Source of the DNA: Methylomarinovum tepidoasis
GTDB taxonomy: Bacteria > Pseudomonadota > Gammaproteobacteria > Methylococcales > Methylothermaceae
Assembly (NCBI RefSeq): GCF_030294985.1
Contig: NZ_AP024718.1
Coordinates: 868,001-932,000, forward strand
Reading direction: 5' to 3'
Length of the DNA: 64,000 nt
Below the pieces are notes generated by a model. It worked only from the letters and a program-made list of their open reading frames with translations. It was not told the DNA's origin and searched no databases. The translations under genes and the position numbers were made by a program. Of this stretch, positions 10,892 to 31,191 are shown in pieces; the first letter of the stretch is position 1, and each line of letters starts with the position of its first letter.

Positions 10892-11783
10892 GCTTTCCAG
10901 TTGTACCGCTGGCACCAGGGCAGGCCCGTCAAGGTGACGCTGGGCCGCTTTCCGGCCATGACCGTTGAGCAGGCGCGCCAGGCCGCAAGGAAGCTGCTTG
11001 GCGAAATGGCCGAGGGCAAGAATCCGCAGGCCGAGAAACGCCGCCGCCGGGCCGAGGCCGTCACTCTGGCCCAGGCGGTGGACGACTATTTGGCCATCCG
11101 CGACCTGAAGCCTGGCACTGTGGCCGACGTGCGCAAGATGATGGCCTGGGGGCTGGCCGACTGGCAGGACAAGCGCCTGAGCGCCATCCGCCAGGACATG
11201 GTGGAGCGTCGCTATCAGGCTCTGTGCGAGAAGTCACCGGCCTGCGCCAACCAGACCATGCGCTACCTGCGGGCGGTGCTGAACTTCGCCATGGCCCGCT
11301 ACAGCGCGCCCGACGGATCGCCCATCCTGCCGGCCAATCCGGTGCAGCGCCTGACCCTCACCCGCGCCTGGAAGCGGGTGGACCGCCGCCGCACCCTGAT
11401 CCGTCCGCACGAGCTGCCCGCCTGGTGGCAGGCCCTGGACCAGATCAATCTGCTGCACGCCGACTTCTTCCGCCTGGTGCTGCTCACCGGCCTGAGAAAG
11501 TCCGAGGCCCTGGGGCTGACCTGGGAAGACGTGGACCTGAAGGCCCGCCTGCTCACCGTCACCGACACCAAGGCCAGGCGGCCGCACGCCCTGCCATTGA
11601 CCGACTACCTGGCCGGGATGCTGGAACGGCACCGCCACCGGCAGCGATGTGACCGCCGGCTACATCGTCATCGATACCGAGCGGCTGCGGGACCCGATGC
11701 AGCAGGTAACCGACTACGTGCTGAAAACGGTGGGGGAGAAGGAAAGCGCCGCTGTCATGCCATTGCGACAGAAGGAGGTTTGA
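10892..11783 (+). pseudogene. decayed P4-type tyrosine integrase (copy 1)
   Basis: Nearly identical to the intact integrase at 21,617-22,861, but lacking the first 53 codons and carrying an internal out-of-frame deletion of about 205 bp after TDYLAGMLER (junction near 11,629). The deletion removes the HxxR catalytic box. The catalytic arginine segment TGLRKSE survives; the remainder is read in the wrong frame. It is non-functional. The deletion at its 5' side, between a CCGGC and the codon for Phe, also removed any attachment site that would have marked this copy's left end. Confidence 0.9.
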
Positions 11784-11785
11784 CC

Positions 11786-11881
11786 ATGTGCCGACAGGAG
11801 ACCGCCGAACGCATCCGGGAGATGGCCCAGGAACTGCCGGAGGAAGACGCCATCGCCCGGTGCCGGTACCACACTGAGTGA
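11786..11881 (+). pseudogene. in-frame fusion relic of the YoeB antitoxin-toxin pair
   Basis: A 31-codon frame whose first 22 residues equal the antitoxin encoded at 22,864 and whose last residues (RCRYHTE) equal the end of the YoeB toxin encoded at 23,093. About 385 bp between them has been lost, apparently through a short CATCG homology. The toxin active site Glu and Arg are gone, so the locus is dead. Confidence 0.8.
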
Positions 11882-11888
11882 CCCGATT

Positions 11889-11948
11889 TCGCCGCGCCTA
11901 GGTTGGCCACCGAAAGCCGGGAAACCCCTTGCCCGGTTGGCGCGGCGA
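11889..11948 (+). ncRNA. C4-like structured RNA element (copy 1)
   Basis: A perfect 10-bp inverted repeat (TCGCCGCGCC ... GGCGCGGCGA) encloses CTAGGTTGGCCACC, then a small hairpin CCGGG-AAACCCCTT-GCCCGG. An almost identical element lies at 23,359-23,418 in the same genetic position although the neighbouring genes have diverged. The size, nested hairpin and position in a phage-like immunity region resemble the C4 antisense RNAs of P1-type phages and prophages; this family assignment is from memory and not tested. A CAAGGGG at 11956-11962, just before the next gene, is complementary to the loop. Confidence 0.5.
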
Positions 11949-11985
11949 TCCTTCACAAGGGGGACTGCGTTGGAAGGGGGACGCA

Positions 11986-12615
11986 ATGCTGCCTGCCTGG
12001 GTAAATCAATATCCACCGCTGCTGGCCGAACTGGAAGAGGCGGTTGATCTATTGCGAAAACGAGATCGCTTTTTTCCCGGTCCTGGCAGGGGAGCGATCC
12101 TCAACCAGGATACCAAAGACATGCTTGCCCTGGTGGCGCAGATGAAAGCCAAACTGGCGCGAGTCTTGGAAGAAAATTCCATCATCGCGTTCTTAGAAAT
12201 CACCACGCGCCCAATCTCCCAGGATGCAAAGGAAACCTGCGAATGGTTGCGCGAACACGACGAACTGCTTGCCGAGGCTTACAAAGCGGGGCGCAATCTG
12301 TACCTGATGCAAGCCTGCCTGATGGGATTCGAGAATGCCTTGCTGGGATTGCAGGCGCACACCAAACCTCAGCGCAAGCGCCCCGGCAAGTATCTTGAGT
12401 GTTTTGTCATACACCACATCTTACGTGCCTGCGACTGTCACCTCATCGAGGACAAGGTGCGAAGGCAGGCGCTGGTCGATTTTGTCTTTGGCAAGGCTGG
12501 TGTTGAGCCGCCGTCAGAACGCACCTACAGGCGGTGGGTGCGGCACCAGGCCAAGGTGAGGCGGCAAATTATGGAGATGAGGACAAAAATACCCCCAAAA
12601 TTCATCGATTTTTGA
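11986..12615 (+). CDS. hypothetical protein in the variable slot (copy 1)
   Basis: A 209-residue protein of unknown function, rich in helices, with no signal peptide. Residues 20-130 look like helical repeats; the last 60 residues are basic (QALVDFVFGKAG then ERTYRRWVRHQAKVRRQ) and could bind nucleic acid. ATG 11986 is preceded by GGAAGGGGG. It sits between the structured RNA and the HTH gene, exactly where the intact element has an unrelated 231-residue protein, so this is a replaceable cargo position. Lower GC and AT-rich codons than its neighbours suggest separate acquisition. Confidence 0.6.
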   Translation: MLPAWVNQYPPLLAELEEAVDLLRKRDRFFPGPGRGAILNQDTKDMLALVAQMKAKLARVLEENSIIAFLEITTRPISQDAKETCEWLREHDELLAEAYKAGRNLYLMQACLMGFENALLGLQAHTKPQRKRPGKYLECFVIHHILRACDCHLIEDKVRRQALVDFVFGKAGVEPPSERTYRRWVRHQAKVRRQIMEMRTKIPPKFIDF

Positions 12616-21456: not shown

Positions 21457-21472
21457 GTAAGTTATTGAATCT

Positions 21473-21522
21473 ATTGGTGGCCAGGGACGGAATCGAACCG
21501 CCGACACGGGGATTTTCAGTCC
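21473..21522. repeat. attL: 50-bp tRNA-Phe duplication
   Basis: Perfect copy of 31,114-31,163, covering the tRNA-Phe 3' end, T-arm, variable region and anticodon arm up to the middle of its stem. The sequences diverge immediately outside on the right (ACCGCATT versus CCTGCTCT). Confidence 0.93.
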
Positions 21523-21570
21523 ACCGCATTAGCGGTTGACGCAGTTTGACGTGGTTCGCTTGCCATTGAT

Positions 21571-21617
21571 TTTCCAGCGATTTACCATTGCCGGAAATTG
21601 ACGGAAATCGCTGGAAA
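21571..21617. repeat. 13-bp inverted repeat before the integrase gene
   Basis: TTTCCAGCGATTT (21,571-21,583) and AAATCGCTGGAAA (21,605-21,617), 21 bp apart, ending on the integrase start codon. Likely a binding site for the integrase, the AlpA-like protein or a repressor controlling int. Confidence 0.6.
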
Positions 21618-22861
21618 TGGCTACCGAACATAGCACCGGCATAGCCCCACCCGACAAAGGGACCCTCACCAAGCGGGTGGTGGAATCCATAGCACCGCCT
21701 AGCACCGGCCGCCGATTCGTCTATGACGCCAAGGTGCCCGGCCTGCGGGTGCAGGTCACCGCCGCCGGCACCAAGTCCTTCCAGTTGTACCGCTGGCACC
21801 AGGGCAAGCCCGTCAAGGTGACCCTTGGCCGCTTCCCGGCCATGACTGTTGAGCAGGCCCGCCAGGCCGCAAGGAAGCTGCTGGGGGAGATGGCCGAGGG
21901 CAAGAATCCGCAGACCGAGAAACGCCGCCGCCAGGCCGAGGCCGTCACCCTGGCCCATGCGGTGGACGACTATCTGGCCATCCGCGACCTGAAGCCTGGC
22001 ACTGTGGCCGACGTGCGCAAGATGATGGCCTGGGGGCTGGCCGATTGGCTGGACAAGCGCCTGACCGCCATACACCAGGACATGGTGGAGCGCCGCTATC
22101 AGTCCCTGTGCGAGAAGTCGCCGGCCTGCGCCAACCGGACCATGCGCTACCTGCGGGCGGTGCTGAACTTCGCCATGGCCCGCTACAGCGCGCCCGACGG
22201 ATCGCCCATCCTGCCGGCCAATCCGGTGCAGCGCCTGACCCTCACCCGCGCCTGGAAGCGGGTGGACCGCCGCCGCACCCTGATCCGTCCGCACGAGCTG
22301 CCCGCCTGGTGGCAGGCCCTGGACCAGATCAATCTGCTGCACGCCGACTTCTTCCGCCTGGTGCTGCTCACCGGCCTGAGAAAGTCCGAGGCCCTGGGGC
22401 TGACCTGGGCCGACGTGGACCTGAATGCCCGCCTGCTCACCGTCACCGACACCAAAGCCAGACGGCCGCACGCCCTGCCATTGACCGACTACCTGGCCGG
22501 GATGCTGGAACGGTGCCGCCGCCTGGCGGTGGCCGATCACGTCTTCGCCGACCACCACGGGCGGGTGGTTTCCAACTTCCGCTATTCCCAGGCCAAGGTG
22601 GAGGCCGTCAGCGGGGTGAAGTTCTGCATCCACGACCTGCGCCGCACCTTCGTCACCATTGCCGAAAGCCTGGACATTCCGGCCTACGCCCTCAAGCGCC
22701 TGCTCAACCATGCCACCGGCAGCGATGTGACCGCCAGCTACATCGTCATCGATACCGAGCGGCTGCGGGACCCGATGCAGCAGGTGACCGACTACGTGCT
22801 GAAAACGGTGGGGGAGAAGGAAAGCGCCGCTGTCATGCCATTGCGACAGAAGGAGGTTTGA
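21617..22861 (+). CDS. int: tyrosine-recombinase integrase (P4-like)
   Basis: A 414-residue integrase. The N-terminal DUF4102 arm-binding domain (YDAKVPGLRVQVTAAGTKSF) is followed by a SAM-like core-binding domain and the catalytic domain: Arg in TGLRKSE (about 254), HDLRRTF (His 339/Arg 342), the second His in LNHATGSD (about 365) and the nucleophile Tyr in ASYIVID (about 374). All catalytic residues are present. It lies 95 bp inside attL and is followed two bases later by a YoeB antitoxin gene. It is nearly identical over long stretches to the decayed copy at 10,892. Confidence 0.95.
   Translation: MATEHSTGIAPPDKGTLTKRVVESIAPPSTGRRFVYDAKVPGLRVQVTAAGTKSFQLYRWHQGKPVKVTLGRFPAMTVEQARQAARKLLGEMAEGKNPQTEKRRRQAEAVTLAHAVDDYLAIRDLKPGTVADVRKMMAWGLADWLDKRLTAIHQDMVERRYQSLCEKSPACANRTMRYLRAVLNFAMARYSAPDGSPILPANPVQRLTLTRAWKRVDRRRTLIRPHELPAWWQALDQINLLHADFFRLVLLTGLRKSEALGLTWADVDLNARLLTVTDTKARRPHALPLTDYLAGMLERCRRLAVADHVFADHHGRVVSNFRYSQAKVEAVSGVKFCIHDLRRTFVTIAESLDIPAYALKRLLNHATGSDVTASYIVIDTERLRDPMQQVTDYVLKTVGEKESAAVMPLRQKEV
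21628..21649 (+). repeat. 22-bp repeat inside the int 5' end (paired with 31,049)
   Basis: A perfect 22-bp match to 31,049-31,070 near attR, containing the TAGCACCGGC-ATAGC core. Further partial TAGCACCG copies occur near 21,690. It could be an integrase arm-type site, present at both ends of the element. Confidence 0.55.
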
Positions 22862-22863
22862 CC

Positions 22864-23100
22864 ATGTGCCGACAGGAGACCGCCGAACGCATCCGGGAGA
22901 TGGCCCAGGAACTGCCGGAGGAAGACGCCATCGAGGTGCTGAAGTTCATCGAGTACCTGCGCTTCCGGCGTCTGGCCGGAGAAGACGAGACCACCTATTT
23001 ATTGAGGGAACCGGCCAACCGCCGCCGCCTGCTGGAGGCGGTGGAGAACATCCGCAAGGGACGCGATATCGAGGCCAAGGAGCTGCTGCCGGATGATTAG
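22864..23100 (+). CDS. antitoxin of a YoeB-type pair
   Basis: A 78-residue protein. The C-terminal half (TYLLREPANRRRLLEAVENI) matches the toxin-binding tail of YefM/Axe antitoxins. The N-terminal half (ETAERIREMAQELPEEDAIEVLKFIEYLR) is not the usual Phd/YefM DNA-binding fold but resembles short DUF2281-like antitoxins, so it looks like a domain swap. AGGAGG precedes the ATG. It overlaps the toxin start by eight bases. Confidence 0.8.
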   Translation: MCRQETAERIREMAQELPEEDAIEVLKFIEYLRFRRLAGEDETTYLLREPANRRRLLEAVENIRKGRDIEAKELLPDD

Positions 23101-23347
23101 CTTCGAGCGCCAGGCTTGGGAGGATTACCTGTACTGGCAGAAACACGACAAGGCCAAACTCAGGCGCATCAATCAGTTGATCCGGGACATCCAGCGCGAT
23201 CCATTCACCGGCCTTGGCAAACCTGAACCGCTCAAGCATGAACTGGCCGGCTTCTGGTCCCGCCGGATCGATCACGAGCACCGCCTGGTTTACACCGTCC
23301 AGGGCGATCACGTCATCATCGCCCAATGCCGATACCACTATGACTGA
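23093..23347 (+). CDS. yoeB: YoeB/Txe-family mRNA interferase toxin
   Basis: An 84-residue toxin closely matching YoeB: WEDYLYWQKHDKAKLRRINQLI, GKPEPLKHELAGFWSRRIDHEHRLVY. Catalytic residues correspond to E45, R64, H82 and Y83. YoeB cleaves mRNA at the ribosomal A site. Carried between int and the immunity-like RNA, it may stabilise the element in the host. Confidence 0.95.
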   Translation: MISFERQAWEDYLYWQKHDKAKLRRINQLIRDIQRDPFTGLGKPEPLKHELAGFWSRRIDHEHRLVYTVQGDHVIIAQCRYHYD

Positions 23348-23358
23348 GTGACCGAGTT

Positions 23359-23418
23359 CCGCCGCGCCTAGGTTGGCCACCGAAAGCCGGGGAAACCCTT
23401 GCCCGGTTGGCGCGGCGA
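23359..23418 (+). ncRNA. C4-like structured RNA element (copy 2)
   Basis: The same fold as at 11,889: outer stem CGCCGCGCC/GGCGCGGCG, conserved CTAGGTTGGCCACC, inner hairpin CCGGGG-AAACCC-TT-GCCCGG. The inner segment changes from GGGAAACCCC to GGGGAAACCC relative to copy 1, keeping length. Conservation while the downstream gene is unrelated argues for function as RNA. Candidate antisense regulator of the C4 class. Confidence 0.55.
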
Positions 23419-24142: not shown

Positions 24143-24213
24143 TTTTTCACCGCGACGACTGCGCCGTTTTTTCCGAAACTGTCCCCCGTCATCAACATGC
24201 AATGGGGGACACC

Positions 24214-24411
24214 ATGCCTTCACCGCTGATCACGCCTGAGGAGGCCGCCCGGATGCTGGGTGTGAGCCCGCGCACCCTCGCGACGTGGCGGTGCCTCGGC
24301 CGCTACCGCTTGCCCTACGTCAAAATCGGCGCCCGTGTCAGATACCGCCAGGAGGATGTCGAGGCCTTCATTGAGCGCCGCACCCGCGAGCATACGGGGG
24401 AGGCGGCATGA
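24214..24411 (+). CDS. AlpA/excisionase-like helix-turn-helix protein (copy 2)
   Basis: A 65-residue HTH protein: TPEEAARMLGVSPRTLATW, then IGARVRYRQEDVEAFIERR. Proteins of this class activate integrase or excision in P4-like elements and are a hallmark of Gram-negative phage-inducible islands. ATG 24,214 has GGGGGAC at close spacing. Its stop overlaps the next start (ATGA). Confidence 0.82.
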   Translation: MPSPLITPEEAARMLGVSPRTLATWRCLGRYRLPYVKIGARVRYRQEDVEAFIERRTREHTGEAA

Positions 24412-24686
24412 CCGCCTTGACACCCAAAAGCGGCAGCGCATATCCTGAGCCTGCACCGGCAAAATCCGGTGTCCGGGTCCGCCAACCCGGAACGCTCACG
24501 GCGCCTGGGCGCCACATCACGAGCGCCTTTTTTGTGCTCTGGAAGTCGATGGTGTCCTGTACGGATTCCCCTTCGGGGGAGCCGGTGTCCCGTGAGGCCG
24601 GTCTTGGCGGGTCCGTGCAGGACGCCGCCCCTCTCGCCAAGATGAGGGCGGCAAACGCCAATCTACTCACGGGAGATTTGCCATGA
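24408..24686 (+). CDS. hypothetical frame, possibly Ash/Icd-like
   Basis: A 92-residue frame coupled by ATGA at both ends (with the HTH gene and with the gene at 24,683). Residues about 25-70 (RQPGTLTAPGRHITSAFF, then SGEPVSREAGLGGS) have the low-complexity look of Ash- or Icd-like phage peptides found beside C4/CI-type immunity RNAs. It may instead be a regulatory leader: CGCCAACCCGG near 24,484 is nearly complementary to CCGGTTGGCG of the C4-like RNA. Low certainty as a protein. Confidence 0.4.
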   Translation: MTALTPKSGSAYPEPAPAKSGVRVRQPGTLTAPGRHITSAFFVLWKSMVSCTDSPSGEPVSREAGLGGSVQDAAPLAKMRAANANLLTGDLP

Positions 24687-25498: not shown

Positions 25499-25526
25499 AT
25501 CAACCTTTCACCGCGTGGAGGTTATC

Positions 25527-25994
25527 GTGCAACCGAATTTTAGCCAAAAACATCCCTCAACGCACCGTCCCATTGATCTAATTCTGCCCCGCCTTGAAAA
25601 GGCACGACGCAGCAAGAACGGCTGGATCGCCCGCTGCCCTGCCCACTTGGATAAGACGCCGAGCCTCGGCGTTCGAGAACTCGACGATGGCCGGGTGTTG
25701 ATCCATTGCTTCAGCGGCTGCGATGCCGCCGACGTGGTGGCGGCCGTCGGCCTGACGCTGGCCGACCTGTTCCCGCCGCGGCCGCCGGGACCTGAAAGGC
25801 AGTTTGCGCCGTCATCGAATCCCGCCTTCTCGCCCTTCGACGTTCTGCGCCTGATCCAACACGAAATCCATATCGTTCTGGCCGCTGCCTGCACTGCCTT
25901 GAATGGCGAGCTTACACGCGAAGACATCGAACGGTTGCAGACGGCAATCAACCGCATCACCGACGCGATCCGACTGGCGGGGGTGAAACGATGA
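25527..25994 (+). CDS. CHC2 zinc-finger primase-like protein
   Basis: A 155-residue protein with a DnaG-type zinc-binding module: C37 and H40 in RCPAHLDKTPS and C61/C65 in HCFSGCDAADVV. No TOPRIM catalytic domain is present, so it would recognise template DNA but need a partner to prime; the DUF3987 protein encoded immediately after (ATGA overlap) is the obvious candidate. GTG 25,527 follows GGAGG; a GTG at 25,515 is the alternative. Confidence 0.8.
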   Translation: MQPNFSQKHPSTHRPIDLILPRLEKARRSKNGWIARCPAHLDKTPSLGVRELDDGRVLIHCFSGCDAADVVAAVGLTLADLFPPRPPGPERQFAPSSNPAFSPFDVLRLIQHEIHIVLAAACTALNGELTREDIERLQTAINRITDAIRLAGVKR

Positions 25995-27481
25995 GCGCGC
26001 AAATCGAGGCAATCGCCGACCGCATCGAGGAGCGCCTTCACGGCAAGAAGCGGCACGGCAAGAAGCAGTCGTTGACCGAAGCGGATAAGGTCTGGCTTCT
26101 CAAGGCGGCAGAATCGCGGTTGCTGAACTCGCCCATCGATCTGCCCGAGTACTCGGCCGAGGCCCTGGGACCACTGGCGCCGGTAGCGCGCGCCATCGCC
26201 GATGGTGGACAGATGGACATCGCCTTGGCCGGCCAGTCGGTACTGGGGGCGGCGGCATTGTGTACCCAGGCTGTGGTCAACGTGGAGACGCTGACAGGGG
26301 ATGATCCGCTTGTTCTGTATCTACTATCCATCGCAGACAGCGGCGACGGCAAGACGCTGGCCGAAAACGCCGCCCTGGCGCCGATTCGGCACTACCAGCG
26401 CGAGCGCACCGAAGCATACAAGGCCGCGCTGCGGGACTGGAAGCAGGCCAAACCCGACGACCGCGACGAGGAGCCGCCGCGCGCGCCATATCTGCTGATG
26501 AGCGACGCGACGATCGAAGGTATCCGCCGATCTTTCATGGAGGGATCGCCATCCCAGGGACTGTTCTCGTCAGAGGCGGCCGTAGTGCTGACCGGATACG
26601 GCATGCAGCCAGAGCACAAGGCCAAAACCGCCGCCGAACTGAACGCCTTGTGGGACCGGGGCGAAATTTCGGTGACCCGTGGCGGGATCGGCCGCGTTCA
26701 ATTGTACGACCGGCGCCTGTCGGTCCATCTGATGATCCAACCGTCAGCCGCCAGAGCAGCCTTGTTCGATGACCTGTTCGCAAACATTGGGTTTTGGCCG
26801 CGATTCCTTTTCGCCTGGCCGCAGCCTGCGCCGCCGCGCAAGGCCAAGGGGTTCCGGCCGGACAAGGACCCGGCCATCGGTCAATTCTGGCGCCGCTGTG
26901 CGCAGCTACTGCCCGCGACGGAGCGGGAGTCATGCGACGACCTACCCACGCTGACGTTGAGCAATGCCGCCCGCCGCCGGATCGAAACCTTTTTCGAGGG
27001 GCTGGAGCGATCCGCCAAGCTGGCCGGCGGCCGCTACGAGCAAATCAAGCCGTTCGCTTTGCGGGCATCACAACAGGCTTGTCGAATCGCCGGAGTTCTC
27101 GCCGCCTACGAAGACGCCACCGCCGTCAGCGAAGCGCACATTGACTGCGGCATCAGATTGGCCACCTACTCGCTCGAATCATGGCGCGCAGCATTCGGCG
27201 ACCGCGACGCCGCCGAGAACGCAAGACGCGCCTATCGGCTGTTTGAATGGCTGGTGAACGTTCGCAATGGCGCCGCGACCGAGACCGACATGCTCAAGAA
27301 CGGACCAAAACCGAGGAGCCGCAGTATTCGGGATGCCGCAACCGCCCTTCTGCATGCGCACGGATTCATTGACCTGGATGCCGACCAAAAACCGCCCAAG
27401 TGGATCGCCGTTCGCCCCGAAGAAGGCGGCGGGGCGAATCTTACGCCGGGCGAAAGGGGCGAATTGGGCGAAACGCCTTGA
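25991..27481 (+). CDS. DUF3987 replication ATPase
   Basis: A 496-residue DUF3987 (YfjI-like) protein. A Walker-A-like loop ADSGDGKT is at about residues 114-121; ASQQACRIAGVLAAYE and the Ala-rich first third are characteristic. Members are thought to be helicase-like replication proteins of mobile elements, often paired with primase zinc fingers as here. Its last 15 codons (NLTPGERGELGE) are themselves built of GGCGAA repeats belonging to the downstream iteron array, tying the protein to its likely origin. Confidence 0.8.
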   Translation: MSAQIEAIADRIEERLHGKKRHGKKQSLTEADKVWLLKAAESRLLNSPIDLPEYSAEALGPLAPVARAIADGGQMDIALAGQSVLGAAALCTQAVVNVETLTGDDPLVLYLLSIADSGDGKTLAENAALAPIRHYQRERTEAYKAALRDWKQAKPDDRDEEPPRAPYLLMSDATIEGIRRSFMEGSPSQGLFSSEAAVVLTGYGMQPEHKAKTAAELNALWDRGEISVTRGGIGRVQLYDRRLSVHLMIQPSAARAALFDDLFANIGFWPRFLFAWPQPAPPRKAKGFRPDKDPAIGQFWRRCAQLLPATERESCDDLPTLTLSNAARRRIETFFEGLERSAKLAGGRYEQIKPFALRASQQACRIAGVLAAYEDATAVSEAHIDCGIRLATYSLESWRAAFGDRDAAENARRAYRLFEWLVNVRNGAATETDMLKNGPKPRSRSIRDAATALLHAHGFIDLDADQKPPKWIAVRPEEGGGANLTPGERGELGETP

Positions 27482-27721
27482 TTCATGCGGGGGTGCAGGC
27501 GAGGCGAACGTGGGCGAAAAAGGCGAATCCTGGGGCGAATCGCCCGTTTTGCCTGGGATTTTCGCCCCGTTCGCCCCGTGTCCAAACACCTGGCAAACGC
27601 CAGAGAAGCTAGCAACTATGCGGGTTTTCGCCTTTTTCGCCCCGCGTTCGCCACTCAGAGAAACAAGAAGCCATGCGGGTTTTCGCCCAAATCGCCCCTT
27701 TCGCCCGGGGTAAGATTCGCC
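27433..27721. repeat. 8+8 inverted iteron array: candidate replication origin
   Basis: GGCGAA occurs eight times on the plus strand (starting 27433, 27449, 27458, 27467, 27503, 27513, 27522, 27534), then TTCGCC occurs eight times (27561, 27570, 27627, 27636, 27647, 27682, 27700, 27716), with spacing often 9-10 bases. ATGCGGGTTTTCGCC is repeated at 27618 and 27673. The array starts in the end of the DUF3987 gene and fills the gap to the next gene. Iterons next to a replication protein suggest an origin. Confidence 0.7.
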
Positions 27722-27735
27722 CGAAGGAGTAGCAC

Positions 27736-27999
27736 ATGAAAATCGACGACGTTCTGACGGAAATCTGCACCGATGACATGAGCCACGAACCTGCATCCAG
27801 CCCAAACGAAACCGGCGCCGATGGCCCGCTGAGGATGCAGCACTGCCGACACTGCGACACCGCCACCCTGCACCAGCGCATCGATGGCCGCTGGCAATGC
27901 ACCCGCCTTCACCGGGCCAAGATCATCGCCATGCCACCCAGGGACAGCCGCCATGCCGAATGGCTGGCCCGATACGACGAAGACTTCGAAGTGTTCTGA
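27736..27999 (+). CDS. hypothetical protein with a small zinc-ribbon-like motif
   Basis: An 87-residue protein; QHCRHCDTATLHQRIDGRWQC gives CxxC...C spacing, a possible half zinc ribbon. GAAGGAG precedes the ATG. The stop overlaps the next start as TGATG. Unknown function. Confidence 0.6.
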   Translation: MKIDDVLTEICTDDMSHEPASSPNETGADGPLRMQHCRHCDTATLHQRIDGRWQCTRLHRAKIIAMPPRDSRHAEWLARYDEDFEVF

Positions 28000-28508
28000 T
28001 GCTGGCCGAGAAAATCACCGCCGCCGGGTTCGCCCTGGAGACCGATGGCGCCCGCCTGGTGGTCAAGCCATCTGGCAAGCTGACTGCCGCCCAATGGGAT
28101 TTCATCCGCCGCCACCGTGACGCCATCATCGCCGAACTGGTCGGCCAAGCTGCCAACGAAGGCGGTGATACCCTCGCCGAAGCCCTACGGCAAGCCTGCC
28201 AGGGATTGACGGTGACTCCGGATCAGGTACGGGCCGCCATGAGCGCCGAGGACCTGGACGACTGGCGCGCCGGCCGGATACCGCTGGCCGAGCTGGAGGC
28301 CTTCGCCAAGGCGCTGGATCGGCGACTGCATCGGAAACCGGACCCGGCGCTGGTGGTGGACGATCCGCTGACGGTGCCCTGTTGGACCTTGGCCGGGAGT
28401 GTGGTGCTGATCCGGGCCTGCGACGCTGAACATGCCAAATGGCTTCGCCGGTGGAATCCGGCGCCGCCGATTGATTCAGAAACGCAATCAGAGGAACCGA
28501 CAGCATGA
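27999..28508 (+). CDS. hypothetical protein (169 aa), TubC-N-like N-terminus
   Basis: The first 45 residues (AGFALETDGARLVVKPSGKLTAAQWDFIRRHRDAIIAEL) resemble the TubC N-terminal docking fold found fused to many mobile-element replication proteins. The rest (LTVTPDQVRAAMSAEDLDDW) is unassigned. It is coupled by overlaps to both neighbours. Confidence 0.6.
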   Translation: MLAEKITAAGFALETDGARLVVKPSGKLTAAQWDFIRRHRDAIIAELVGQAANEGGDTLAEALRQACQGLTVTPDQVRAAMSAEDLDDWRAGRIPLAELEAFAKALDRRLHRKPDPALVVDDPLTVPCWTLAGSVVLIRACDAEHAKWLRRWNPAPPIDSETQSEEPTA

Positions 28509-28897
28509 TGCAAGCCGCCATTCACGGCCGCCTTGGCCGCGACCCTGAGACCCGCATCACGTCCACCGGCAAGACGATGGCCACCTGTTCGGTGGCGGTG
28601 GACGTGACCGCCCACAACGCCGAGGCCGATGAAACCATCTGGATTCGCCTGGTCGCCTTCAGACGCCTGGCCGATCAATTGGCGCGCCACCGCCAGGGGG
28701 ATATGGTGTCGGCATTCGGCCGCCTGGTGCTGAACCGATGGATAGGCCGCGACGGTGAGGAGCGCACCGGCTGGGAGATGGTGGCCAACGATCTGGTGTC
28801 CGCCCGTACCGTTCGGCCTGGTGGGGGGAGGCGTAAGAAAGCAGCCGCCCAACCCGCGCCAGTGGCCGCATTCGATGACGATCCGATGCCATTATGA
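28505..28897 (+). CDS. ssb: single-stranded DNA-binding protein
   Basis: A 130-residue OB-fold SSB: IHGRLGRDPETRITSTGKTMATCSVAV, then ETIWIRLVAFRRLADQLARH and GDMVSAFGRLVLNRW. The C-terminal tip DDDPMPL is an acidic SSB tail for partner binding. An element-encoded SSB supports autonomous replication. Start overlaps the previous stop. Confidence 0.88.
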   Translation: MMQAAIHGRLGRDPETRITSTGKTMATCSVAVDVTAHNAEADETIWIRLVAFRRLADQLARHRQGDMVSAFGRLVLNRWIGRDGEERTGWEMVANDLVSARTVRPGGGRRKKAAAQPAPVAAFDDDPMPL

Positions 28898-28906
28898 GGA
28901 GAGGAG

Positions 28907-29320
28907 ATGACCATGAAGTTAACACCGAAACAGGAGCGCTTTTGCCTGGAATACGTCAAGACCGGCAACGCCAGTGAAGCCTACCGCTGCGCCTATGACG
29001 CCGACAGGATGAAGCCGGAGGCGGTCCACGTGGCCGCCTGTCGGCTGCTTGAGAAGGCTAAGGTTGCGCTAAGGATTGACGAGCTGCGCCAGGCCATCGA
29101 GGAGGAAGCTATTGCCGACGCCAAGGCCCGGCAGCGGTGGTGGACGCAGATCATGTACGACGAAACCGCCGAGCTGAAAGACCGCCTGAAGGCATCGGAA
29201 CTGCTGGCCAAGGCCCAGGGCGACTTCATCGAACGGCGGGAGGTCAGCGGCCAGGGCGGCGGGCCGGTGATTCTGAAGATCGGCGACAAGGATATTGACC
29301 CGGAGGCCCTTGGTTGGTGA
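28907..29320 (+). CDS. phage terminase small subunit (terS)
   Basis: A 137-residue protein with the Terminase_2 (XtmA-like) N-terminal DNA-binding segment LTPKQERFCLEYVKTGNASEAY, helical middle (RQRWWTQIMYDETAELKDRLKASELLAKAQGDF) and C-terminal GPVILKIGD strand. Small terminases select the DNA to be packaged. No large subunit is encoded, so the protein would have to work with a helper phage enzyme, the mechanism used by packaging-redirecting satellites. Confidence 0.88.
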   Translation: MTMKLTPKQERFCLEYVKTGNASEAYRCAYDADRMKPEAVHVAACRLLEKAKVALRIDELRQAIEEEAIADAKARQRWWTQIMYDETAELKDRLKASELLAKAQGDFIERREVSGQGGGPVILKIGDKDIDPEALGW

Positions 29321-29755: not shown

Positions 29756-30113
29756 GTGCCACTTTCCCACCTCCACCGCATCCCTGGCCGATCTGAGGCG
29801 GTCGGTCTGCGGCGGAGGGTGTTGCTATCAAGAAACAATCAAGCAGGATGCCAATCCCGTGCCACGCTGGTGAAGAATGACGCTATGACGTGCTGCACAG
29901 TTTTTGGTCAGCCTGTATCCAGCGCCATACAACGATGGAAAAATCCGTGCCATGTTACCCGAGTGAAACAATCACCAGGGCGCCGCCGCTGGGGAAGTCA
30001 GGGGAATGTCGTGGTGACGTGGCGCGCCGGGTCCTTCCTGGCAAATCGTGGGTTGCGGGGAGTTCGAACCCCGGTTTTCGACAGTTTTTCAACTCCCTAG
30101 GCGACCACCACCC
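29756..30113. other. about 360 bp without a supported gene
   Basis: Open frames here have no convincing composition or ribosome sites. The stretch contains a hairpin near 30,050-30,075 (CGGGG-AGTTCGAA-CCCCG) that mimics a tRNA T-arm but does not fold as one. It may hold the promoter for the Nu1-like gene or debris. Confidence 0.4.
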
Positions 30114-30590
30114 ATGTCCAACGATCTGGCCAAAACCGCCGTTTCACTGCGCCGTCTGGCCGCACTCACCGGCTTGCATCGGGACACCATCCGCCGCCGG
30201 CTGGAAGACATCGAACCAAGACACAAGCTGGGCGGGCATCCCGCCTATGAACTGGCCGAAGCCTTGCGCGCCATCTGCAAGCCATCTTCGAATGTCGATC
30301 CTGAAGCATTGCCGCCAGCTGACCGCAAAGCCTGGTACGAAAGCGAGTTGAAGCGCCGTCAGCTACAGGTCAATGACCGCGAGCTGATCCTGGCCGCCGA
30401 GGTGGAACGGGTGGTGGCCACCGCCTTCGCCGCCCTGGCCCAGGGGCTGCGGTCCATCCCGGACATCATCGAACGCCGCTGCGCCGTCGGTCCCGAAACG
30501 CTGGAGCAGATCGAGCGCATCATCGATGCCGAGATGGACGCCATGGCCGACAGGCTGGAACGACTGGGCGGCAAAGTGGGGGGCACCTGA
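30114..30590 (+). CDS. DUF1441 / Nu1-like DNA-packaging protein
   Basis: A 158-residue protein of the DUF1441 class (related to terminase small subunit Nu1): the N-terminal winged HTH SLRRLAALTGLHRDTIRRRL, the coiled region KAWYESELKRRQLQVNDREL, then VVATAFAALAQGLRSIPDI and EIDAEMD-type ending. It is a second, different small-terminase-like protein in the same element. ATG 30,114 fits the domain start although no strong ribosome site precedes it. Confidence 0.75.
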   Translation: MSNDLAKTAVSLRRLAALTGLHRDTIRRRLEDIEPRHKLGGHPAYELAEALRAICKPSSNVDPEALPPADRKAWYESELKRRQLQVNDRELILAAEVERVVATAFAALAQGLRSIPDIIERRCAVGPETLEQIERIIDAEMDAMADRLERLGGKVGGT

Positions 30591-31072: not shown

Positions 31073-31107
31073 AAAAAAGCCCTGCCAGAGCAATCCGGCA
31101 AGGCTTT
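31073..31107 (-). terminator. rho-independent terminator of tRNA-Phe (element-supplied)
   Basis: On the minus strand: AAAGCCTTGCC-GGATTGCTCT-GGCAGGGCTTTTTT, eight bases after the CCA end of tRNA-Phe. The element thus brings a replacement terminator for the tRNA it invades. Confidence 0.8.
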
Positions 31108-31113
31108 GATTTC

Positions 31114-31163
31114 ATTGGTGGCCAGGGACGGAATCGAACCGCCGACACGGGGATTTTCAGTCC
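31114..31163. repeat. attR: 50-bp repeat within intact tRNA-Phe
   Basis: Identical to attL at 21,473-21,522; it overlaps the 3' part of the functional tRNA gene. Confidence 0.93.
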
Positions 31164-31191
31164 CCTGCTCTACCAACTGAGCTACCTGGCC
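31116..31191 (-). tRNA. tRNA-Phe(GAA)
   Basis: A 76-nt cloverleaf including encoded CCA: acceptor stem GGCCAGG/CCTGGCC, D-arm GCTCAGTTGGTAGAGC, anticodon arm GGGGA-CTGAAAA-TCCCC (anticodon GAA), T-arm GGCGG-TTCGATT-CCGTC. Integration target of the element. Confidence 0.98.

Follow-up and report, generated by a model that had tools for sequence, protein, structure and literature searches.

A Mirrored Iteron Array Beside a DUF3987 Gene as the Probable Replication Origin of a Satellite-Like Element of Methylomarinovum tepidoasis

Introduction

Phage P4 is a satellite whose alpha protein, a helicase-primase, binds short repeats in two places (ori and crr). In PICIs, the origins consist of two iteron sets located directly 3' of the rep gene, and in EcCICFT073 the region downstream of rep has been shown to be important to the maintenance of a plasmid (PMC6092414, accessible text). 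The SaPI Rep protein and the SCCmec Cch and Cch2 proteins are self-loading helicases, the C-terminal domain of which recognises iterons just downstream of the gene (PMC7581432, accessible text). The search model for PICMI satellites of Vibrionaceae takes DUF3987 or DUF5906 as the primase, and deletion of the primase gene lowers the copy number (PMC10803314, accessible text). DUF3987 has been described as a predicted helicase family of mobile elements, and the winged helices of such proteins have been suggested to recognise origins (Kazlauskas et al. 2018, PMC5862659, accessible text). In the literature that we searched, which left out most subscription journals, we found no work linking DUF3987 to iterons, to an MCM-like structure or to a specificity code.

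What is known of the origins and initiators of phage satellites comes from a few models. Here, we describe one design that recurs beside DUF3987 genes, starting from a window of 64,000 nucleotides of M. tepidoasis DNA (contig NZ_AP024718.1, positions 868,001 to 932,000), in which an array of GGCGAA repeats follows a DUF3987 gene. Positions refer to the window unless a locus is named.

Results

The Array in the Window

The initial annotation had reported eight GGCGAA followed by eight TTCGCC with one switch of orientation, and the count within 27433-27721 was the same (Table 1). An extra TTCGCC at 27411, in the DUF3987 gene, lies outside this stretch, and counting it raises the number of switches to two. 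Block B starts 36 bp after block A and block A' stands 35 bp after block B', with the one-mismatch site at 27691 occupying a 9-bp slot in the right arm. The whole array is enclosed by the two halves of an inverted repeat that are 95% complementary. As was also proposed, the array is partly coding: its first four iterons (block A) lie within the last codons of the DUF3987 gene, and the right arm falls between annotated ORFs. The initial annotation also mentioned a 15-bp repeat, for which it gave no position; we found a direct pair of 15 nt that is 80% alike (27409/27645), a perfect inverted pair of 16 bp (27512-27527/27627-27642), and a direct pair of 43 bp that is 79% alike (27601/27656).

The hexamer occurs 17 times in 27380-27760, whereas 2,000 dinucleotide shuffles of this stretch had 0.9 copies on average and at most 5. 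The maximum for any hexamer in shuffles of this region was 13, and the best hexamer elsewhere in the window, among 1,257 other stretches of 381 bases, reached 12 copies. Between the inner blocks the AT content is 41%, compared with 37% in the element, i.e., the centre of the array is not AT-rich. A search of the same genome for a second copy of the array returned only the array itself and its arms matching each other, and there was no Rfam gathering match on the array.

Table 1. Positions of the array, its subdivisions and the surrounding features in the window.
Feature	Position	Strand	Remarks
Left attachment repeat	21465..21527		63-nt repeat
Tyrosine integrase	21617..22861	+	family match
Small helix-turn-helix regulator	24202..24411	+	matches HTH_17 and excise, not an AlpA model
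CHC2 zinc-finger protein, primase-type finger	25515..25994	+	just above family cut-off
DUF3987 gene, proposed initiator helicase	25991..27481	+	Pfam DUF3987, 1.5e-62
Inverted repeat, left half	27432..27473		42 bp, array boundary
Left arm, outer block A	27433..27472	+	GGCGAA at 27433, 27449, 27458, 27467; spacing 16, 9, 9
Left arm, inner block B	27503..27539	+	GGCGAA at 27503, 27513, 27522, 27534; spacing 10, 9, 12
Added central pair	27561..27575	-	TTCGCC at 27561, 27570; not part of the common layout of the family
Right arm, inner block B'	27627..27652	-	TTCGCC at 27627, 27636, 27647
Inverted repeat, right half	27681..27722		42 bp, array boundary
Right arm, outer block A'	27682..27721	-	TTCGCC at 27682, 27700, 27716; one-mismatch site at 27691
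87-aa ORF after the array	27736..27999	+	no family match
Single-strand DNA-binding protein (SSB) gene	28505..28897	+	family match
Terminase small subunit-like gene	28907..29320	+	family match
Second terminase small subunit-like gene (DUF1441)	30048..30590	+	family match
Right attachment repeat	31106..31168		overlaps tRNA-Phe 31116-31191 (-)

The Host Element

The array sits in a satellite-like integrated element of 9.64 kb, located at a tRNA-Phe gene and flanked by 63-nt repeats that are 92% alike. The order of the element is tyrosine integrase, YoeB-type toxin, int-alpA RNA, helix-turn-helix regulator, C4 antisense RNA, CHC2, DUF3987 and the array, followed by the 87-aa ORF, one further ORF, the SSB gene and the two terminase small subunit-like genes; all genes assigned to the element are on the + strand. 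By its size and position, the regulator is AlpA-like. Among the element ORFs scanned there was no match to a Rep family, the gene adjacent to the array being DUF3987, and none to the curated structural or lytic phage families. The DUF1441 ORF gave one weak, sub-cut-off match to a GTA head protein.

Several other features of this region were observed. Two different terminase small subunit-like genes occur in this one small element. The region 22831-23347 holds the YoeB-type toxin gene and an upstream small ORF with a weak DUF2281 match, and is likely a toxin-antitoxin pair inside the element. The C4 antisense RNA (24545-24632), of a type known from P1 and P4 immunity, is encoded after the small regulator and ahead of the replication genes, and may act as a switch of the replication operon. 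At 10901-12615 there is a second element, apparently decayed; it carries the same integrase in shortened form, another int-alpA RNA (11891-11961), and an ORF with a beginning similar to that of the ORF at 23399.

Recurrence of the Arrays Beside DUF3987 Genes

A DUF3987 match (E of at most 1e-10) was present in 30 of the 311 genomes of the order to which the window belongs, its own genome included. Within the genus (10 genomes), the protein was found only in the genome of the window, apart from one weak match (G002, 24% identity). Alignment-based scans confirmed 300 genome loci, of which 80 were kept, and added 14 viral loci; the 94 loci retained, together with the window and 6 loci from the genome search, made up a survey set of 101 loci. 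The search of viral contigs with the single protein confirmed no relative, and phage records gave no protein match and no close DNA match. To score an array, we counted same-strand pairs of one hexamer 8-12 bp apart in a 1-kb region around the gene end.

At the 3' end of DUF3987, at least three phased hexamer pairs were found in 68 of the 101 loci, compared with 3/93 upstream, 0/95 downstream and 0/101 shuffled 1-kb controls. Two of the three upstream matches (L078, TGCGAA; L127, AGTAGC) themselves look like iteron arrays. With a threshold of at least two pairs, the count was 83/101, versus 5/93, 6/95 and 0/101 in the respective controls; the remaining 18 loci had fewer than two. A GC[TG]A core was present in 56 of the 68 best hexamers, but in only 5% of random hexamers and in 4/95 best hexamers of the downstream controls. 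Around this core the motifs of relatives vary (GGCGAA, GGCGAC, GGCTAA, TGCTAA, TGCGAC, GCTACA, GCTATT and others), and the records with arrays beside DUF3987 bear names from Pseudomonas and Paracoccus to Meiothermus. The motif scan of the homologous region, which the initial annotation had proposed as a check, thus placed arrays at the same position in relatives. Their absence there had been named as evidence against an origin, and, since the repeats do recur, that objection falls away.

Two kinds of loci stood apart by their motif. Eight loci (L051, L054, L055, L058, L070, L073, L087 and L089) have TGCGGA or GGCGGA repeats, i.e., a GCGG instead of a GCGA core, which suggests that a further residue sets the fourth core base. 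On two Psychrobacter plasmids (L136 and L138), a convergent GCTTAA/TTAAGC array, outside the GC[TG]A class, lies just after DUF3987.

Geometry of the Arrays

The geometry was determined for 66 loci with GC[TG]A motifs. These, like the 51 training loci used below, come from a first survey table, which missed arrays found on one strand only and held 66 and 80 of the 101 loci at the thresholds of at least three and at least two pairs, versus 68 and 83 in the fuller one. In this set, 43 arrays were purely convergent, 10 mixed, 7 on one strand and 6 divergent; the array of the window is classed as mixed because of the site at 27411. Five of the six divergent arrays are on viral contigs (L123, L124, L125, L128 and L132), about 475 bp after DUF3987, possibly representing a separate origin layout.

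Spacings were quantised. Among 303 same-strand spacings of at most 16 bp, 189 were 9 bp, 42 were 10 bp and 41 were 11 bp. In the short layout, three sites at 9 bp face three sites at 9 bp; in the long layout, three sites at 9 bp are followed by a gap, by three sites at 10-11 bp, and then by the mirror image. Of 36 gaps measured, 25 were 33-35 bp and 8 were 42-45 bp long, the two sizes being about one helical turn apart, although two of the eight longer gaps (L090 and L092, 43 bp) may be 34-bp gaps in which one degenerate site was missed. The distances across the centre of arrays with an inner spacing of 8-9 bp cluster near 8, 19, 30 and 40 bp. For a period of 10.5 bp, the Rayleigh test gave R 0.89 for 28 loci, and R 0.88 (p ~3.5e-7) for the 19 distinct motif/distance combinations, values that are inflated because the loci share ancestry. 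For the long layout, R was 0.85 (14 loci) or 0.75 (8 distinct combinations, p 0.011), and periods of 10-11.5 bp fit the phase data about as well as 10.5 bp.

The view that the 8+8 mirrored layout is unusual was not upheld. In the 42 purely convergent maps, 3+3 (12 maps) and 6+6 (5 maps) were the commonest site counts, and the 8+8 array of the window is an enlarged version of this mirrored family layout: it has the long layout, its gaps measuring 36 and 35 bp, and adds the central pair and extra outer sites. The centres of the 42 convergent loci are 4 points richer in AT, with 26 of the 42 positive.

Covariation of DUF3987 Residues and Iteron Bases

The columns of 81 aligned DUF3987 proteins were screened as predictors of the variable iteron bases. 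Motif calls, which were hexamer-based, could be made for 84 of 118 protein rows, and the 34 rows without a call do not enter the counts. Residue 436 predicted the third core base (T or G) with 0.94 bits, compared with 0.52 for the next column and 0.65 for the largest of 500 permutations. In the 51 training loci, Gln436 was present in 22 of 23 loci with T, and Arg, Lys, His or Asn436 in all 28 loci with G. Of the 33 held-out loci, 25 agreed, one (L053) disagreed, and seven had Thr436, all with T; Thr436 was absent from training, and its class, which the tree test also uses, was added after the held-out loci had been examined. With Thr included, the rule (Gln or Thr for T; Arg, Lys, His or Asn for G) holds in 82 of 84 loci, the exceptions being L052 and L053. 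One more locus, L014, goes against it with Gln and TTGCGA, but its single pair is below the threshold.

On a tree built from the ATPase domain only, the third core base changes at least 16 times, and among 10 independent pairs on supported branches residue 436 followed the base in a mean of 9.6 and went against it in none (median p 0.002). For residue 432, Arg was present in 44/46 loci with C after the core, versus 1/29 loci with A, and in 8 independent pairs the change was the same way in 7.3 and opposite in none (median p 0.016). Residue 440 was Lys or Arg in 17/18 loci with G before the core versus 1/47 with T; its association is not significant on the tree (5 independent pairs, median p 0.125), and a column of the ATPase domain rivals it (0.92 versus 1.01 bits). 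The protein of the window has Thr432, Lys436 and Lys440, the residues expected for GGCGAA.

Whole-motif similarity followed winged-helix similarity weakly after ATPase similarity was removed (partial correlation 0.17, reached by 0 of 300 permutations). The signal of covariation is in single positions, not in overall winged-helix similarity. Judging by about a hundred related sequences, this suggests that single DUF3987 residues read single letters of the repeat.

Predicted Fold of the DUF3987 Protein

A first model of the protein (9 sequences, pLDDT 68) was superseded by a second one (81 sequences, mean pLDDT 91.7), which predicts an AAA+ core and a C-terminal winged helix at residues ~405-475. 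All 50 Foldseek matches listed were MCM, CMG, OCCM or replisome entries (best E 2.6e-6), with a low whole-chain TM of 0.30-0.39. A second aligner likewise listed 50 matches, all of them MCM or CMG entries (Z 16.3-18.2), the best with Z 18.2 and an rmsd of 3.5 over 265 aligned residues; the rmsd was 3.3-3.8 for the core alone versus 7-10 with the winged helix included. A profile search of PDB sequences for solved relatives gave one match, not an MCM, with E 0.28. In the model, the ATPase core folds like that of MCM helicases, a shared fold being no proof of function. Residues 432 and 436 are placed in helix 2 of the predicted winged helix and residue 440 in the turn after it, and not in the canonical recognition helix 3.

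Arms at Both Ends of the Gene and a Possible Cassette Swap

Phased left-arm sites near the DUF3987 start were found in 11 of 74 loci tested. Ten of them belong to the clade of the window (L035, L036, L038, L039, L040, L042, L043, L045, L046 and L047), and in these ten the left arm lies inside the first DUF3987 codons, about 1.4 kb from the right arm; the sites at the gene start of L098 were taken as chance. In L039 the two arms are identical at 79 of 81 positions, spacer included. Gene conversion between arms is clear only there: in the window, L035, L036, L038 and L040, the two arms of an element resemble each other no more than they resemble arms of other elements. The genome of L039 also has another TTCGCC array like a right arm (L039:14847-14925), about 5.7 kb downstream of the right arm, possibly a second element or a remote site of control.

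In one genome, the DNA of the loci L037 and L035 is 83% identical as far as the first iterons of the left arm and 75% identical from immediately beyond the right arm, but unlike in between. The initiator core, residue 436 (Gln instead of Lys in L037) and the iterons (GCTATT instead of GGCGAA) differ together.

Discussion

The array is very probably the replication origin of the 9.6-kb satellite-like element, with iterons bound by the adjacent DUF3987 initiator helicase. The initial annotation's proposal of an origin beside a replication gene is supported by the recurrence of arrays in 68/101 loci and by the covariation of the motif with the DNA-binding domain of the adjacent protein. Each GGCGAA would be a binding site for the C-terminal winged helix of this protein, contacted directly, in which residue 436 would read the third core base, residue 432 the base after the core A, and residue 440 probably the base before GC. 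On the two converging arms, protein subunits would face opposite ways on a constant side of the helix; the arms would probably load a pair of opposed helicase rings, and these would open the origin with the help of the CHC2 protein and the SSB of the element. We infer that replication would be bidirectional and that the origin would be used after excision. Plasmids were also considered as proof of autonomous replication and set aside: repM is also listed for two Psychrobacter plasmids; for one of P. putida, YfjI is the sole replication-type gene listed, in an incomplete gene table, and only a right arm is present.

Could the array be an operator or silencer instead, by which DUF3987 or a regulator controls the replication operon or the genes that follow the array, while replication starts elsewhere? 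The left arm inside the DUF3987 start of ten relatives is where a bound protein could affect expression, and the covariation indicates recognition by DUF3987, not its consequence. However, at least six sites per arm in mirror symmetry are seldom needed for such control, and the corresponding region of EcCICFT073 matters for plasmid maintenance (PMC6092414, accessible text). We consider an operator alone to be unlikely, and the same array may have operator and origin functions together. Terminase small subunit proteins can bind repeats, and the presence of two genes of this kind in the element would fit a packaging site (pac- or cos-like) read by its terminase small subunit. This possibility is slight, given that the motif covaries with DUF3987 residues and that the arrays adjoin DUF3987 in two-thirds of the loci surveyed.

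The two remaining explanations do without a protein that reads the repeats. An RNA hairpin, a terminator or a cruciform would account for the long inverted repeat and for the further inverted repeats nested in it, but it is highly improbable when the arms may stand about 1.4 kb apart, the motif changes together with protein residues, the spacings are quantised, and no Rfam family lies on the array. A low-complexity peptide (GERGE) or a GC-rich composition, and not a DNA signal, is scarcely credible as the source of the repeats: although the array is partly coding and 9 bp make up three codons, in the window the right arm lies between annotated ORFs; depending on the locus, related arrays code at the start or at the end of the gene or are non-coding; and shuffles fall short of the hexamer count.

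The origin reading of the window can be extended to the family. DUF3987 proteins would then be a broad bacterial family of MCM-like initiators, each reading its own origin; residues 432, 436 and 440 would specify three iteron bases, the mirrored and phased arms would load two opposed hexamers without host loaders, and initiator and origin would be exchanged as one cassette with ends near the arms. For this wider proposal as a whole, the case for and against seems to us evenly balanced. If it is true, origin specificity would be predictable from the protein sequence and could be reprogrammed. If the code holds, one could predict the origins, and foretell the compatibility, of many mobile elements that are now unannotated, and MCM-like ring loading on double-stranded DNA could be studied by residue and base swaps in a one-protein system.

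In comparison with MCM helicases, the AAA+ core fold and the C-terminal winged helix are common to the DUF3987 model and MCM. The structural matches begin at about residue 60 of the model, corresponding to about residue 330-365 of human and yeast MCM5 and MCM6 chains, and the MCM N-terminal domain is outside them. At the sequence level, Pfam assigns DUF3987.

Among satellites, the accessible text on PICMI (PMC10803314) does not mention iterons and names an origin of replication once, and that of Kazlauskas et al. 2018 (PMC5862659) contains neither the word iteron nor a motif or specificity residues. The SaPI and SCCmec initiators are of the DUF927 and Primase_Cterm/D5 types, and DUF3987 is absent from the accessible text of PMC7581432. 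A SaPI-type trait, the specification of the iteron by the C-terminal domain, is borne out statistically, as residues 436 and 432 covary with iteron bases on independent branches.

A close likeness is to EcCICFT073, where the repeats run in both orientations (TCTACC/GGTAGA), some of them 9 bp apart, and precede an 85-aa ORF and the SSB gene. The order of rep, repeats, small ORF and SSB is nearly the same in the window, with an 87-aa ORF and one more ORF. The replication proteins belong to different Pfam families (D5_N/DUF5906 in EcCICFT073, DUF3987 in the window), and the AT-rich region between the iteron sets of PICIs is lacking. The element shares with Gram-negative PICIs the integrase with an attachment site and the two iteron sets directly 3' of rep, but we withhold the strict PICI label because neither the AT-rich centre nor, by Pfam family, a rep homologous to that of EcCICFT073 was found. 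Iteron origins 3' of rep are already known in phage-inducible islands, and the origin proposed for the window is a variant thereof; the helical phasing and the residue-base code found in DUF3987 loci are not described for PICI origins in the accessible text of PMC6092414.
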